From Dermatophagoides farinae (taxonomy: Eukaryota > Arthropoda > Arachnida > Sarcoptiformes > Pyroglyphidae), in NCBI RefSeq assembly GCF_024713945.1, contig NC_134680.1, positions 749,001 through 813,000 of the forward strand: 64,000 bases of DNA. Reading direction: 5' to 3'. A program made the translations under genes and the position numbers. Positions 17,478-57,041 of this stretch are shown here, piece by piece. The notes beneath the pieces were generated by a model. It worked only from the letters and a program-made list of their open reading frames with translations. It ran no database searches and was not told the DNA's origin. Position 1 is the stretch's first letter. The number at the start of each line of letters is the position of its first letter.

Positions 17478-20114
17478 TCAAAATTGATAATCAGGACCAA
17501 CCATTTCAATGGCCCAACGAAATTTATCACGCTGTGTTTTATTGTAAATCTTTTCAATTGGAACTTCCCATTTTTTGCACCTTAAATGAAACAAATCAAA
17601 AAATTAATTTAATTTAAATCAGAAATTTAAAAAAACAACTTACCATGCAACACTGATACGTGGATCCAAATAATTTAGCTTCGAAGTGCCCAATGCAATC
17701 TGTTTATTTTCTTCTTTATCAACTTTGGCCACTTCCAATTTTTTCAATTGTTCTTCCAATGTTTTCAATTTCTTTTTATATTTTTCTTTAGCGCCAGCAT
17801 CATTTTTTGTTTCTTTATATTGTTTTTTCAATTCTTTAATCTGTGTTTTTTTATCCTTAATTTTACCATTAAGATTTTCCATTTGTTTATCATGTGTTTT
17901 GGAAACAGATTTTTGATGATTACACAACAATGCAACGGCACGATTTGCACGATTATAGGCAAGTATCTTTTCCGGCATTGTCATATCAAGTTTTGTTAAT
18001 TCATTTAGCTGTTGTTGTAGAGTATTGGATGCATTATATGTACGAAATACTTTGGCCGTCAAGCCATCCATCAAAGAATTTAAATACTTATTCAAACTTG
18101 ATGTATTCAGACGATCAAAAAGATCATCACCTGGACTTTTATCGACGATAAAATGTTTTAGATTTTTAAACACACGTTTCTCCACCGATACTGAATTCAC
18201 ATAACGTATGGAATCTTTACCCAAAAAATCAAAATCAACAACATATTGTTTGCCATCTTTTTCTGAATGTAATGTAATATGTTCAACACGTAATGAACAA
18301 CAACCAACAGTGTCAGCGGTTTCACCTTCTTCTTTTTCATTGCCGGCTCTCAATGCTAATTTATCAATAAAATATAATGCAACAGCACGTTGTCGTTTCA
18401 TCATTTCACGGGATTTAAAATCAGCCCTATAATCGGAACGGATTTTATTCACATATTTTTTCAATTCACGTGCTTTTTCATATTTTTGCCAATCTTTTAT
18501 ACTTTTCAATTTTGATGATGGATTCAACATTATATATTTAACATTGCCCATAATGTTTTCCGTCCACGATGCTAACCATGTAACAGTATTATCATGACGT
18601 ACTTCTTTCCATTTATGACCAGCCGGTGGTGTCGGTATTTTTACTTTTTCACCAATATTAATAATTATATCTTCTGGTTGTACACGTTTTTTCAGTTTAC
18701 CCATTTTAGGATGTTCACCACGGCCACGAAACAATCCAGGTGGTTCGATACGAAAATTGCCAATTTTTTGTTTATGGCCATCAACAATACAATAACCATA
18801 TTTATTGACAATTTCTTCATTTTTCAATTTAATTTGTTGTTTTTCTTCTTTTGTCATCTGTTTACGTAATTCGGATTGTTGTTTAAAATATTCATTCAAT
18901 TCATGAAAATTACATTTTTTCAAATCAGTAATCAATTCACGTTCTTTTTCATTCATTGTTTTACGCCAATCTTTGAAGAAATTTTTATTGAAAACATCTT
19001 TCGATGTATATTCATGTTCCAACATTCGTGCATAAAATCCGGCCACTTCTTCGGCTTCTGATGATAGTTCGAAATGTTTTCCATCATAATAGAATCGTAC
19101 CTTCTTTGGTAATGGTTCATAATCCGGTGGAAATACTGGACCATTATGTTCCAATGTTTTCCATTTGATACCTTCACCAGGACTTTCTTCTTCCCACCAT
19201 TTCCAAATATGTTCATCTTCTTCTTCTTGTTTCTTTTTTCGTTTCTTTTCAACTTTACCATCTGACGATGATGATTCTTTTTTAATTTTAGATTTTTTAT
19301 TATTATCTTTTGATGATTTTGAATCTTTTTCTGATTTTGTTTTCACCGTTTTTGTTTTCATTCCACCATCATTCATTGCCAATGTCGATGTTGATGATGA
19401 TGATGATGATGGTTTGTCTTTTTTATTCTTTAATTTTTTCTTATCACCACCACTGCTATCCAGATGTTTTGTTTTGGATTTTTTCAATTTTTTCGATGAT
19501 GATTTATATTCTGAATCACTATAATCGGATTCATTATCATTATCATCATCATTATCAATATCATCATCGTCACTATATTCACGTTTGATTTTTTTCTTTA
19601 ATTTTGTCGTTGTTGTTGTTGTTGTTGAGGAATCATTATTTGAATGTTTTGTATCGGATTTTTTAGATTTTTTCGTCTTTTTAGGCATATAATCATCTTC
19701 ATCAGAATCATTATGTTTACGTTTTTTCTTCTTTTTAGATTTATTATTATAATTATCATCATCATTTGAATCACTTTCTTCTTTATATTTTGAATGATGA
19801 TGATTATTTAACATTGAATTATTATTATTATTACTACTACGGGTATTATTATTATTGTTGTTGTTATTGTTCGATACCATTCCAAATGAATCATCTGGTT
19901 CAGATTTCATCTCTGAACGTTGTGAATCATCATCATCATCATTATTATAATCTTGACTATTGTCATTATCATCATCTTCATCATCATCATAAGAATCATA
20001 TTTTCCATTACCATTACGTGAATGATATTGTTGTGAATCATCATCATCATCACTTTGTTGTTGTTGTTGTTCATGTTGATCATCCGATTCATCAGCCGAT
20101 GATGAATTGGCCAT
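17478..20114 (-). CDS. TOP1: DNA topoisomerase I (type IB)
   Basis: Complement of join(17478..17580, 17644..20114), 857 residues. It relaxes supercoils by a transient 3'-phosphotyrosyl nick. Residues 1 to about 290 are disordered, rich in Asp, Asn, Ser and Lys, with probable nuclear signals (KKKKKRKH). The core begins [18 protein letters not shown] and includes [35 protein letters not shown] and [12 protein letters not shown] Lys-rich coiled linker ([18 protein letters not shown]) follows. The active site is [14 protein letters not shown], Tyr at 815. The terminal exon is small and lies beyond a 63-base intron; it codes for [20 protein letters not shown]..., the standard C terminus. The Trp codon is split by the intron (TG|G). 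Confidence 0.96.
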
Positions 20115-21574
20115 CTCGTTTTTTTTTGTTCTTAATATAAAATCAAATTATTGTCGATGATAAATGAATTGATTAATTTGTTTGTTTTGTGGTTCCTGTT
20201 TCAAATTTGAAAACGAAAAAAAAAATTTATTTTCATAATCATCAAATGTAAAAAACTTACTTTGGGTTAATTAGAAAAAAAAATCAGTCTAGATAGATAA
20301 AATTGTCATCGTTGTTGTTGTTGTTGTTGTCGATTTTGATGTGCCCAATGTTAATAACGACAATAACGGCAAAAAAGTTGACAATACACACACAAACTTT
20401 ACATAAAAGGTAAGAAAAAAAATTATCTATTTACAAGCACATACACAATTTACGGTCGTTGATTGTTTAATTGATGATGATGATGATGATGATGGTGATG
20501 GTTTTAAAAACACCGGTCACAGGATTTTTTTTTAGTCGAAACGAAACAGAATCGTCCAATAAGTCACTCGATAAACACACAAACACACACACACAAAAAA
20601 CAGAATTGATCAAATTCGTCGTAATATACCCGAGGTAGAATGAAGATGAGAAAAAGTTTCGGTAAAAAACAACCAAAATTCCAAATGAATAACGATTCGA
20701 TTTCGCGAAAAGACGGTCGAGGTTTGTTTTCGAGATTACTGTTTTTCCGGTGTATTGAACAAAAAAAAACCATCAAGATTGATTTTTCTAAATGAATGAA
20801 AATGTGCTACAAATAATCGAAGAGAAACAAACAAAAAAAAAAGAAGCCAAAAAAAAATCCTAAATGAAACCCCAATTAATGATGAACACAACGACGACGA
20901 CGACGACGAGAAAAAAAAAAGACCAACAACAACGGCAACGGCAAAACGAGACGATGGCGAGTTGGACTTAGTTTTTTTTTCAGCCTTTTTTTTCAGAGTT
21001 TAGTTTTTTTTTCTATCTATTTGTGCAACTTTGTGTGTGTTTATGCTGTGCTATGTAACCATTTTTCAATGCGTTTTTGCCATTAGCTACTTTTTTGTTT
21101 TGCAAAAGAAAAAAAAAAGAAAGACTCGACAATCATCACCATCATCATCATCGAACAAATAAAATACTGAGACGACAATGGAGAATAATGTGAGAAGATA
21201 TAGTGAGAGATTGTGAGATTTTGGGAGGGTGAGTTACCGCACACACACACACACACAAGTTAATGCTACTACTTTTTATTGGTCATACAACAAACAAACA
21301 AAAAAATTTTTTTTTTTTTTTGGCCATTTTGTCCCGCGAGGTTGAATGGCTGAATAATGATGGTCTGTGCATGAGTGGAGAGAGAGAGAGAGAAAGAGGG
21401 TGAATTTTGTGTGTGTGATAAATACCACTAGAAATTTAGACAGCAACGCCGTCTGGTGTTGAAATAATTTTTTCAAATTTTTTTTCTCCAAATTATTAAC
21501 AGATGGCGATAATAGCAGTATTGGGATATTCAAATTGTTTTTTTTTTAAATTTTTAAATTCACAAAAATTCATT
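20115..21574. other. Intergenic, TOP1 5' flank and PNKP 3' flank
   Basis: Simple sequence, including TTG runs (20310), CA runs (20380, 20590, 21240), GACGAC runs (20890-20910) and GAGAGA (21375). A TOP1 5' UTR intron is possible: an acceptor and donor would fit near 20135-20260. No supported gene. Confidence 0.45.
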
Positions 21575-34089: not shown

Positions 34090-34188
34090 GTACAGATTTT
34101 TTGAACGGATCCAATTTTTTGTCTATTTTTTTTCTCTTTGTCTTGTTCGAGAATTCGAAAAAAATTGATTTTCATCGCTGAAATCGAA
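34090..34188. repeat. Direct repeat copy R1 (about 99 bases)
   Basis: Starts GTACAGATTTTTTGAACGGA, ends CATCGCTGAAATCGAA. Nearly identical to 34325-34423 (R2) apart from homopolymer lengths. Each copy is followed on the plus strand by tRNA-Gln-like sequence, so the duplicated unit included both. Confidence 0.9.
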
Positions 34189-34212
34189 TACATATCAATG
34201 ATAAACAGCAAA

Positions 34213-34239
34213 CCGAGATTCGAACTCGGATTGCTGGAT
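34213..34239 (-). pseudogene. tRNA-Gln 3' half fragment (copy 1)
   Basis: Minus strand reads ATCCAG CAAT CCGAG TTCGAAT CTCGG: the 3' side of the anticodon stem, variable loop and a perfect T arm of tRNA-Gln. The 3' acceptor strand is missing (TTTGCTG instead of TGGGGCC). It starts at the same point as the intact half at 34588, just after the anticodon. A relic. Confidence 0.7.
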
Positions 34240-34324: not shown

Positions 34325-34423
34325 GTACAGATTTTTTGAACGGATCCAATTTTTTGTCGTTTTTTCTTTTTGTCTTGTTCGAGAATTCGAAAAAAAAAAT
34401 TGATTTTCATCGCTGAAATCGAA
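34325..34423. repeat. Direct repeat copy R2 (about 99 bases)
   Basis: Second copy of the segment at 34090-34188; it lies between the tRNA-Gln 5' half and the truncated tRNA-Gln 3' half. Confidence 0.9.
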
Positions 34424-34508
34424 AACAGCCAAAAAAAATGAATATTTTTACTACTCACCATTTGATTTGATAATGTGAATGTGGAAAAAAAGAAGGCTCA
34501 CCGATATT

Positions 34509-34588
34509 TTCAAAGTCCAGAGTGATAGCCACTACACCATGGAGCCATTAATTAGGCCCCACCGAGATTCGAACTCGGGTTGCTGGAT
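34509..34588 (-). tRNA. tRNA-Gln(TTG) with permuted halves (3' half before 5' half)
   Basis: On the minus strand, 34588 to 34554 reads ATCCAG CAAC CCGAG TTCGAAT CTCGG TGGGGCC T: the anticodon-stem 3' strand, T arm, 3' acceptor strand and discriminator. After a 7-base spacer (34553-34547, AATTAAT), 34546 to 34509 reads GGCTCCA, a D arm with A-box TGGTGTAGTGG, then CTGGA and the loop CTTTGAA with anticodon TTG. Together the two parts give a full 72-base tRNA-Gln: GGCTCCA pairs with TGGGGCC, CTGGA with TCCAG. The break is at 37/38, the usual tRNA intron site. A T7 run (34491-34485, minus sense) follows the 5' half, as a Pol III stop would. It could instead be the junction of two decayed tandem tRNA genes. 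Confidence 0.6.
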
Positions 34589-35000
34589 AACATTACAAAT
34601 AGATTAGATTACATTAACTTTTTTTCATTCTTTCTTTTTCTGTATCCTTTTTTTTATAATTCTTTTTTTTTCTTTTCACTTTTTACCATAGAGCCCTTAA
34701 CTGTTAGGGAAAGTTGTGATCCTTTGAATTTAAATAGAATAAATTTTCATCATTTTTATCATGTAATTTTAATTATCAATTAACACCCTCGAAAATGAGA
34801 AGTCAAGATGAAGGATAGAAAATAGTTACGAAAAAAATGAGAGAAAAAGTCAAAATAACAAATATTGGAAGCATAGAAATGAACATTCAGTATATCCAAA
34901 AATCACGTGAATGACTTTGGCCGCTTGGTGGGCGATTTAGCCGATGGTATCGCAATTTTTTTTTCAATTGTTTTTAGTTTCAACAAATCACGTGACTATA
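34589..35000. other. Flank of piggyBac relic
   Basis: A/T-rich. A CAAAAATCACGTGAATGAC / CAACAAATCACGTGACTAT pair at 34898-34917 and 34981-35000, each followed by ATGGTATCGCA / CGATAGTATCCCG words, suggests a degenerate short duplication. No gene seen. Confidence 0.4.
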
Positions 35001-53311: not shown

Positions 53312-56300
53312 ATGTTTATTAAAAAACTTATCCTTGACGGCTTCAAATCATATGGAAAACGTGTTGAAATCACCGATTTTGATCCATCATTCAATGCCAT
53401 CACTGGTTTTAATGGTAGTGGAAAATCGAATATTCTCGATGCAATTTGTTTCGTACTTGGTCTATCCAAATTAGAACTTGCTCGTTGTCATACGTTGAAT
53501 GATTTAATTTATAAAAATGGACATGCCGGTGTTACAACGGCATCGGTTACAATGGAAATTGATAATACAGATGGTAAATTTTCACATAGTGATTATAGTA
53601 ATTCACCAGTGATTGTTGTTCGTCGTGAGGTAATGTATAAATTGAATGAAAAATTCGTTTCATTTCACTGATGATCAATTTATTTTTTTCTAGATCAATA
53701 TGAAAAATCAATCCAAATATTATATTGATGGATTTTGTGTGACCAAAGAAAAATTGATGGATTTTTTTCAATTAGTATCATTGAATATTCAAAATCCACA
53801 TTTTCTAATTATGCAAGGTAAAATTGTTAAAGTCGTATCGATGAAACCAACCGAGGTATGTGTCAGAATTTCTTGTTTGTTTTTCTGTATGACTAAAATT
53901 CATTCCATAGATATTATCAATGATTGAAGAAGCTGTCGGTGTCAGTGTTTATGAGAACAAAAAGAAACAGAATTTGATCAGAATTGAAAAATGTGATAAA
54001 TCATTGAATGAAATTGGCTATTTAATTGATGAATCCATTCGGCCAAAATTGAATCGAATTTGTGAAGAACAAAAAGCATTACGAGAATATCATACAATCA
54101 AAGCCAGATATGATCAAATGTTTAAAATTTCAATTGCACATCGATATTTGAAAGATAAACACATTGTCGATATGGCCGATACAAATGTTGAATCACATAG
54201 AGCATCTATACAGGCAAAAGAAGATGAAAAATTTCGTCTTATTTCGGATTCAGAAACATTGGCCAAACAAATTGAAACATTACAAAAACGATTAGATGCC
54301 AGTATGGGTGGTGATCTTCGGCAATTTGAAACCAATGTAAATCAAAAGCAAAATATTCTCCAACAGATGAATATGAAACAAAAATTGAAACAAGATCAAC
54401 TTGACGAAGAACAAAATGAATTGACAACAGTACAGAAAAAATTAAACAAAGAAACGAAAATATTGACTAATAAACAGAATGAATTTGATGAATTGAAAAA
54501 AACATTGGAACAATTGAAAAATGAACATGAAACAAATGAAAAATTATTCAATAAAGCTCAAGAAGATTTAGAGGCCATAAATTTTGGCAAATCCAAAGGC
54601 ATTCAAGGTGAAAAAGCGGCAACATTAACACATCAATTAATGACCACTAAAGATACATTGGCCGATGTTGAATCACGGATCAATAAATGCAAATTGATTA
54701 TTGAACATACAACAAAAGAATTGACAACGAAAAATAAACAAATAAAATCCGATAAAGATGTTTATGATGGTATCATACATGATATTGAAAAACGACGTAA
54801 AGAAATGGAACAATTGCAACAAGAAATGAATGTAATTGATTTTAGTGAAGAAAATTTTGAAGAAATGAAACAAATTAATTCACGTTTGAAAAATGATATA
54901 TTATTATTGCAGGATAAAATTAATCATTTACGTCCATCAGTACCTTTTTCAAAATTTAAATGTCCAGATTCATTGGATATTGATGAAGAATCAATATATG
55001 GTGTTGTTTGTGATTTATTCACTATTAATCATCCAGAACAACATTCTGTTGCCATTGAAAAAGTATGTGGTGGCCGTCTTTTCAATGTTATTGTATCCAG
55101 TGATGAAGTGGGTGCTAAATTGATCAAGAAAAATCTTAAAGAACGACGTACATTTTTACCATTGAATAAAATCACTGGAAGAGATACCGATATTCGTGCA
55201 TTACGATTGGCTGAACAATTAGTTGGCCGTGGTAATGTTCATTATGCTATCAATTTGGTTTCATTTGATAATGAATTGAAAAATGCTATGAAATATGTAT
55301 TCGGTGATACGATGCTATGTCCAAATATGAATATGGCTAAAAAAATTGCCTTTGCCAACGGTATCATGAAACGTGTTGTAACATATGATGGTGAAATATT
55401 CGATCCAACCGGTACATTGACTGGTGGTGCATTGAAAAATAGCCAATCATCATTGGAGATTATTGGTGAAATTAAATCCATTGAAGAAGAATTACATTTG
55501 CATCGTATTCGTAAACAACAGGCTGAAGATGAATTGAAACATCTGGATCGTAATGCAAAACAATTTGAAGATAAAAAATCAAAATTATTATTAAAACAAC
55601 AAGAAATTGATGGATTAAATCTACGTTTACAAGAATCATGTCATTATGTTACAATGAAAGATATTGAAGATATGAAACAACGAATAAATGATGAACAAAA
55701 TTCGTTGAAACAATTGGCCAATGAAAAAACCGCCATCAATGATCGTATTAAAGAAATTGAATATAAAATTCAAAATTCTGAATCAACAAAAAAACTTGAA
55801 CTAAAAGAAGCAAAAAATTATCTATCATCAATACAAAAACAATGTGAAACAACTGGAAAACAATTGCAAAATGATGAAAAACAATTTGTTTGCCTGGAAC
55901 AAGAACTACTACATCATCGTGAATGTGTTGATGTGTTGAATAAACAGATTGAAAAAATTCATTCAGATATTGAACAAATCAAAAAAGAATTGCTCACCAT
56001 ACAGAATGAAATTGATAATTGTCAAATGGAAATGAAATGTGCGCAAGAAAAATATGATGAATATAAACAACAATTGAATGAAAAATCAAAAGAAATACAA
56101 AAACTACAAAAACAATCCGATATGATACGTAATCTTGTTGATGAAATTGGCCGTGAAATTAAATTGAAAACATATGAAATGGAAAAAATTGAAACATCCA
56201 TACATGAAGCACAGGAACGTTTACGATCAATGTTGCATAAATATCAATGGATTAAAGATGAAGCAAAAGATTTTCATTCCGATCAAAATGAATATCGTAT

Positions 56301-57041
56301 ATTGAATCAGATGGATTTTGATGAAAATGTTTTTTTCGTTAAATTAAAATCATTAAAATTGCAACAAGAATCATTGGGAAAATCTGTGAACATGAAAGCC
56401 AATATAATGCATGGACAAATGCAAAAAGAATTTGAAGAACTATTACATAAACGTGATGTAACATTGAAAGATAGAAAAAAATTAATACAATATATGGAAA
56501 AGGTGGAGAAAGAAAAAGATAAAGAATTACGAAAAGCGTGGAAAAAAATTAATGAAAATTTTGGCGCTATTTTTGGCACATTATTACCAAATGCTAATGC
56601 AAGATTGGCACCAGTATCGTCACGTATAAAAGATGGTCTAGAAATTAAAGTTGCATTCGGTGATGTATGGAAAGAATCATTATCTGAATTGAGTGGTGGC
56701 CAACGATCATTGGTGGCATTATCATTAGTATTATCATTGTTAAAATATTATCCAGCACCATTATATATTTTGGATGAAATTGATGCAGCATTGGATCAAA
56801 GTCATACACAAAATATTGGATTAATGATTCGTAGACATTTTAAAAATGCACAGGTATGTGTCATATGTACATTCGATTGAATTTCAATATCATCATCAAT
56901 GTTTTAATGTCCAATTTTTCTTTCCAATTCAATTAGTTTATCATTGTATCATTAAAGGATGATATGTTCAACAATGCAAACGTTTTGTTTCAAACAAAAT
57001 TTATCGATGGATTTTCAACTGTTGACCGGATTAAATTATGA
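53312..57041 (+). CDS. SMC2: Condensin subunit SMC2
   Basis: Join(53312..53629, 53694..53855, 53911..56853, 56937..57041), 1175 residues; the length suits SMC2. The ATPase core of condensin I/II, compacting mitotic chromosomes with SMC4. [19 protein letters not shown] is the family start. Walker [22 protein letters not shown]; long coiled coil; hinge around [21 protein letters not shown] to [13 protein letters not shown]; second coiled coil; signature [16 protein letters not shown]; Walker [14 protein letters not shown]. The last exon gives [22 protein letters not shown], the usual D-loop end. It begins 214 bases after the DNase II stop on the same strand. Confidence 0.97.

Follow-up and report, generated by a model that had tools for sequence, protein, structure and literature searches.

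Permuted tRNA genes encode the 3' half of a tRNA upstream of its 5' half on one strand, and the two halves together give a complete tRNA. The relevant sections of a 2014 review describe such genes from unicellular algae and one archaeon, and type II genes, with the junction between positions 37 and 38, from red and green algae and a nucleomorph; in Table 1 of the review the intervening sequences of type II genes span 5-64 bases (PMC3978253). In the same sections, how permuted genes develop is called unclear, the proposal being that tandem intron-bearing genes lose their outer halves, and an extra 5' half is cited for O. lucimarinus (PMC3978253). RNase P and tRNase Z are named in another paper as the enzymes that possibly open the circle (PMC4033280). 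The portions of the literature on permuted tRNA that we drew on (PMC3978253, PMC4501094, PMC4033280, PMC8450103) name no permuted tRNA gene from an animal. Here we describe a mite locus at which two halves of a tRNA-Gln(TTG) stand in permuted order, and we confirmed that this swapped order is real. To our knowledge, a working permuted tRNA gene at this place would be the first in an animal.

The window, the whole stretch of 64 kb that we analysed, covers positions 749001-813000 of contig C4 in an assembly of 62.4 Mb and 22 contigs. It also carries a gene for an SMC hinge-domain protein (53911-56880, plus strand) and one for a eukaryotic topoisomerase I (17640-20147, minus strand), neither of which looked unusual. 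The first-pass annotation had described a full 3' half followed, after 7 bases, by a full 5' half with the anticodon TTG and then by a run of seven Ts, and the coordinates (Table 1), a covariance-model score and a tRNA call on a circularised piece bear this description out. Half A, the 3' half, contains the 3' strand of the anticodon stem, the variable loop, the T arm, the 3' strand of the acceptor stem and a discriminator T, with its B box at 34574-34566. Half B, the 5' half, contains the 5' strand of the acceptor stem, the D arm with an A box from 34539, and the anticodon. The acceptor and anticodon stems pair between the halves; the T stem lies inside half A and the D stem inside half B. 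All 20 of the stem pairs tested are standard, with seven in the acceptor stem (one of them T-G), five in the T stem, five in the anticodon stem and three in the D stem, and the complementarity of the acceptor and anticodon stems across the halves thus holds as first reported. The ARAGORN output shows U8, A14, G15-C48, G18G19, U33 and TTC in the T loop, and ARAGORN also places the break of a longer circle at 37-38, where the first reading had put it. Between 34697 and 34485, the seven-T run is the only run of four or more Ts.

Table 1. Positions of the features at the permuted locus (window coordinates) and of the extra 3' halves elsewhere (coordinates of the respective loci).
Feature	Position	Strand	Basis
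Half A, 3' half of tRNA-Gln, A38-T73	34554..34588	minus	halves paired; model R1, ARAGORN
Linker AATTAAT, 7 nt, without T4 run	34547..34553	minus	
Half B, 5' half of tRNA-Gln(TTG), G1-A37	34510..34546	minus	halves paired; model R1, ARAGORN
Trailer 3' of position 37	34492..34509	minus	
T7 run, possible Pol III terminator	34485..34491	minus	
Leader upstream of half A, read as intron-like, ends ATGTT/A	34589..34684	minus	
Alpha relic GGCTCTATGGT, positions 1-11 of lost 5' half	34685..34695	minus	sequence match to half B
A-box-like TGGTAAAAAGT, one mismatch, overlapping alpha relic	34678..34688	minus	
Beta relic TCGGTGAGCCT, read as 3' end of beta's lost 3' half	34494..34504	minus	recognised by eye
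Gamma, second 3' half	34205..34239	minus	pattern searches, model R1
R1 flank, first copy of duplicated flank (repeat, not the model)	34325..34427	minus	
R2 flank, second copy of duplicated flank	34090..34192	minus	
Extra 3' halves	L016:496-531; L017:348-383; L035:360-395; L036:621-656; L037:299-335; L041:317-353 and 97-133; L042:742-778		

We scored the locus with model R1, a covariance model of permuted tRNAs made from 26 rows of the same assembly, with no Gln among them and the window locus excluded. The score was 61.2 bits with an E value of 1.1e-17, which is rough owing to the short calibration, and the only second match in the window up to E 10 was gamma, at 12.6 bits. On the circularised piece, ARAGORN called a 72-base tRNA-Gln(ttg). 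Linear tRNA searches of the window, including ARAGORN with introns of up to 400 bases, called no tRNA, and no 5' half was seen upstream of a 3' half that pairs with it, as in an ordinary tRNA gene with an intron. Across 45 loci, model R1 gave 110 matches up to E 1, of which the five strongest reached 43.1-67.2 bits and the next 29.9 bits (L037). All five are joints on small contigs at which two neighbouring intact genes meet; in three, both genes are for the same amino acid, and several of the genes involved are themselves rows of the model. Since joints of intact genes reach 43-67 bits, permuted genes and tandem joints cannot be told apart by a high score. The T-arm pattern GGTTCRANYCC occurs at 258 places in the assembly, compared with 51 for a reversed control. 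Our census drew on the first 100 of these places, on C1-C3 and the start of C4; 12 lay in loci already examined and 79 in 78 further loci. Among 79 loci (those 78 and L058), the model gave no match at E 0.001.

The sequences on either side of the joined halves contain remains of further tRNA sequence. Upstream of the leader, the alpha relic and its TTAA flank are identical to the start of half B at 14 of 17 bases, which places a 5'-half relic upstream of the 3' half, as at a tandem joint with lost outer halves. The alpha relic is the best ungapped match in the window on both strands, half B itself aside. Directly after half B comes the acceptor-like TCGGTGAGCCT, picked out by eye and without a statistic, which is probably what is left of a second lost half. 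About 270 bases beyond half B, downstream on the same strand, lies gamma. Up to the acceptor it has 28 bases, which are free of damaging changes and differ at one position each from half A and from the ordinary tRNA-Gln gene on C1, and it keeps a T arm and a normal 3' splice context (AAGTG/A). Its acceptor strand has been replaced (TTTGCTG), and pairing with GGCTCCA of half B is impossible. Gamma and its flanks form a tandem duplication with a spacing of about 235 bases, joined at a shared CTGNAC; the R1 and R2 flanks agree at 97 of 100 aligned bases, with 3 substitutions and two 3-nt gaps.

On balance, the locus is probably a recent relic, the undecayed and dispensable remains of a tandem pair of tRNA-Gln(TTG) genes, here called alpha and beta. 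These genes would have stood head to tail, each with an intron at 37/38. Alpha would then have lost its 5' half save about 11 bases, and beta its 3' half, likewise save about 11 bases, which would have left the two inner halves (3' from alpha, 5' from beta) 7 bases apart as a complete tRNA in permuted order. A second copy of the beta 3' half, gamma, would have come from another local duplication and would later have lost its acceptor strand. We infer this order of events as the simplest history. If the locus is transcribed, Pol III could begin at the alpha relic, an A-box-like sequence that precedes the half A B box, and terminate at the seven-T run; tRNA-splicing endonuclease and ligase could join 37 to 38 into a circle, from which RNase P and RNase Z could excise the linker. 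The pairing of AATAT with ATGTT just outside the break, pointed out from the letters at first, is feasible, with five pairs of which one is G-U, but it is weak evidence in DNA this rich in A+T. A bulge-helix-bulge at the 37/38 junction would rest on these five weak pairs, and the leader could derive from the alpha intron.

When the leader of half A was compared with the gamma intron, 392 of 500 shuffles scored as well or better, so that their similarity is not significant and the comparison recovered no homologous introns of two former genes. Nor did comparison with the intron of the C1 gene show homology to the leader or to the gamma intron. The missing intron homology weakens the tandem-gene reading, and the introns may have diverged past recognition. 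Without demonstrable homology between leader and gamma intron, what links alpha and beta as genes of common origin is their halves together with the short relics.

Redundancy is one ground for the verdict of a recent relic. The first-pass annotation had proposed a count of other tRNA-Gln genes, and our pattern searches returned an ordinary Gln(TTG) gene on C1 with a 79-nt intron and an ordinary Gln(CTG) gene on C3 with a 77-nt intron. Since both are present, the window locus is dispensable for decoding, and it probably has no role. The pattern for the 5' Gln half occurs at a single place in the assembly, in the window, and that for the 3' half at three (the C1 gene, half A and gamma); a shorter 3' pattern gave four places, with C3 added. 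A shorter 5' pattern gave 24 places, compared with 14 for a reversed control. Three of these are exact: those on C1 and in the window are tRNA halves, and L061 is without a tRNA by ARAGORN. Among the 21 inexact places, the three that we examined (L062, L065 and L072) contain no tRNA.

The good state of the two halves does not by itself call for a function, because gamma is dead and 28 of its bases are nevertheless intact. By our estimate, about 1-2 changes in 72 bases are to be expected since the duplication of the R1 and R2 flanks, so that intact halves A and B are unremarkable. Against the relic stands the loss of both outer halves with both inner halves intact, which is the pattern expected from selection for a permuted gene. 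The joint change at positions 15 and 48 described below and the 20 of 20 standing stem pairs also argue against it. If alpha lost its 5' half early, the intact half A would need explaining.

Broken tRNA copies are found elsewhere in the assembly. Around each of 32 tRNA genes we searched a locus 1 to 5 kb long, ungapped and at 72% identity or more, and found an extra same-strand 3' half downstream of seven (Asn twice, Pro twice, Phe, and Met twice), at 73-100% identity and with the nearest copy 69-178 bases away (Table 1). The seven cases make up three pairs of similar loci and Phe, and hence about four separate families; for Phe, the duplicated unit begins in the anticodon stem, much as next to the window locus. 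These broken tandem copies favour the relic reading. No lone extra 5' half was found beside any of the 32 genes, the only 5' halves seen belonging to a tandem pair of Gly genes, both intact, and this makes half B unusual.

ARAGORN found at least 68 tRNA genes in 44 loci, 26 of them on C1-C10 and 42 on small contigs; these counts are a lower bound, as 63 of 2453 candidates were scored in the RF00005 search. Introns of 10 to 109 bases interrupt the anticodon loop of 21 of the 26 genes on C1-C10. The further loci contributed two Gly genes and also three Leu genes, in which the intron is 113-174 bases long. The tRNA set of the large contigs seems unusually rich in introns for an animal. Base 32 pairs with the intron base at position -3 relative to the 3' splice site (the 32/-3 pair) in 24 of 26 introns measured, in a count that took genes sharing both loop and intron as one and set every intron at 37/38, a position from which the ARAGORN placement within the loop sometimes departs. 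The exceptions are L016 Ser and L050, whose intron ends the script perhaps misplaced. Domain matches for splicing endonuclease lie on C3 and C6, with a third on the small contig C15.

Of the 42 tRNA genes on small contigs (among C11-C21, for example at L012, L018 and L157), 41 lack introns, and C14 carries an intronless MCM gene. The assembly seems to include a second, compact eukaryote, represented by the small contigs. To place these contigs, SSU rRNA copies were scored for microsporidian identity; the five that were scored all lie on large contigs, and an Rfam search of two 9.9-kb stretches of C14 and C16 found nothing. On the large contigs we also observed three strong matches to the group 7 allergen family (C6:4185833-4186336, C6:4867184-4867720 and C1:4965543-4966097) and two weaker ones on C9 and C3, which support a mite as the source but are no proof of it.

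The alternative that fares best is a working circularly permuted tRNA-Gln(UUG) gene of type II with its junction at 37/38, which we regard as a serious but minority possibility. In such a gene, Pol III would initiate at the alpha relic, or at an upstream element, and read up to the seven-T run, endonuclease and ligase would form the circle, and RNase P and RNase Z would open it at the acceptor stem. The first-pass annotation had left a choice between a working permuted gene and the joint of two decayed tandem genes. The flanking relics back the tandem joint as origin, and a working gene is compatible with that same origin because the loss of outer halves from tandem genes is the route to permuted genes proposed in the review section on their origin (PMC3978253). 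Besides the complete cloverleaf with the bases listed above, a working gene is favoured by the linker and junction, both inside the range given in the type II table (PMC3978253), by the genes with a splicing-endonuclease domain that lie on C3 and C6, and by the 32/-3 pair, which is kept at the window locus between C32 in half B and a G at -3 in the leader of half A, a base shared with most measured intron 3' ends in the genome. It is disfavoured by the ordinary genes that serve both Gln anticodons.

One observation that speaks for cooperation of the halves concerns positions 15 and 48. At the window locus half B carries G15 and half A carries C48, whereas four other Gln genes (TTG on C1, CTG on C3 and both small-contig Gln genes) have A15-T48 and gamma has T48. 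This Levitt pair is G-C or A-T in 42 of 46 tRNAs, a count over 46 of 47 alignment rows (L052 was dropped for its length) that excludes Leu, Tyr and most Ser genes as well as repeats. G15 and C48 both look derived, compensating for each other across halves of different former genes, and their joint change suggests that halves A and B worked within one molecule, which speaks for maintenance by selection. Alternatively, 15/48 changed before the duplication and gamma reverted, which would cost one more step.

A possible transcription unit is a second, likewise indecisive line in favour. The A-box-like relic precedes the B box of half A by about 110 bases, with no run of four Ts until the seven-T run, and a transcription unit from the alpha relic to that run is thinkable. 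Neither feature is statistically rare, which counts against a working gene: stretches without T4 make up 12-17% of 206-nt stretches and 561 of 1256 at similar T content, and A-box matches with one mismatch or none turn up at a rate of about one per kb on each strand. We therefore rejected the absence of T4 as a sign of selection; T4 occurs inside 5 of the 26 ordinary genes on C1-C10. In the predicted minimum free energy (MFE) fold of the 211-nt RNA, the alpha and beta relics pair with each other, most pairs having probabilities of 0.8-1.0, and this outer stem, which favours a working gene, encloses the acceptor, T and anticodon stems. On the other side, the fold z-scores are only -1.67 for 211 nt and -0.27 for a 119-nt piece, and the MFE fold of the latter is not a cloverleaf. 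The mean anticodon-stem probability was 0.41 for 211 nt and 0.50 for 119 nt, compared with 0.05 for the ordinary C1 gene. Because that gene folds no better, folding cannot decide function, and we rejected folding energy as a diagnostic. Tentatively, the locus may be read as a working permuted animal tRNA gene caught early, in which the inner halves act together, the alpha relic serves as A box and the pairing of the relics aligns the splice ends.

Far less plausible is that half B forms the 5' exon of an ordinary gene whose intron of about 270 bases ends at gamma. Gamma has the position, the splice context and the T arm that such a gene would call for, but no pairing is possible between its acceptor strand and half B, ARAGORN calls no gene spanning half B and gamma when introns of up to 400 bases are allowed, and G15 with U48 would fall outside the G-C and A-T pairs of 42 of 46 tRNAs. 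With the acceptor broken, we rejected this linear reading as close to refuted. That the assembly wrongly joined two copies, tandem or allelic, is scarcely credible, as the short relics and the tandem flanks, 3% diverged, form a consistent local history, and a DNA search of the assembly with the 121-base locus found only the locus itself, in a search insensitive enough to miss the C1 gene too.

In conclusion, a recent relic of two tandem genes is the reading that we favour for this locus. One outer-half relic, and probably both, can be read beside the joined inner halves, which makes the published origin route testable at a single locus, and the locus lets the question of a working permuted tRNA gene in an animal be put to experiment. 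Like the type II genes described in the sections of the review that treat them, it has the 3' half first, a junction at 37/38, a short linker (here of 7 bases) without T4, and a T run after the 5' half (PMC3978253). Unlike them, it has an animal host, visible relics of outer halves and an ordinary gene with the same anticodon elsewhere in the genome. With the intermediate predicted in the review's account of origins, it shares a tandem of the same anticodon, an intron at 37/38, lost outer halves and an extra half nearby; it departs from that prediction in that the relics of both lost halves seem readable and in that the extra half is a 3' half and not a 5' half (PMC3978253). It also resembles tRNA pseudogenes and truncated tandem copies, in which halves are lost, the copies are redundant with intact genes and duplications are local. 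In contrast to truncated copies, its two remaining halves fully complement each other.
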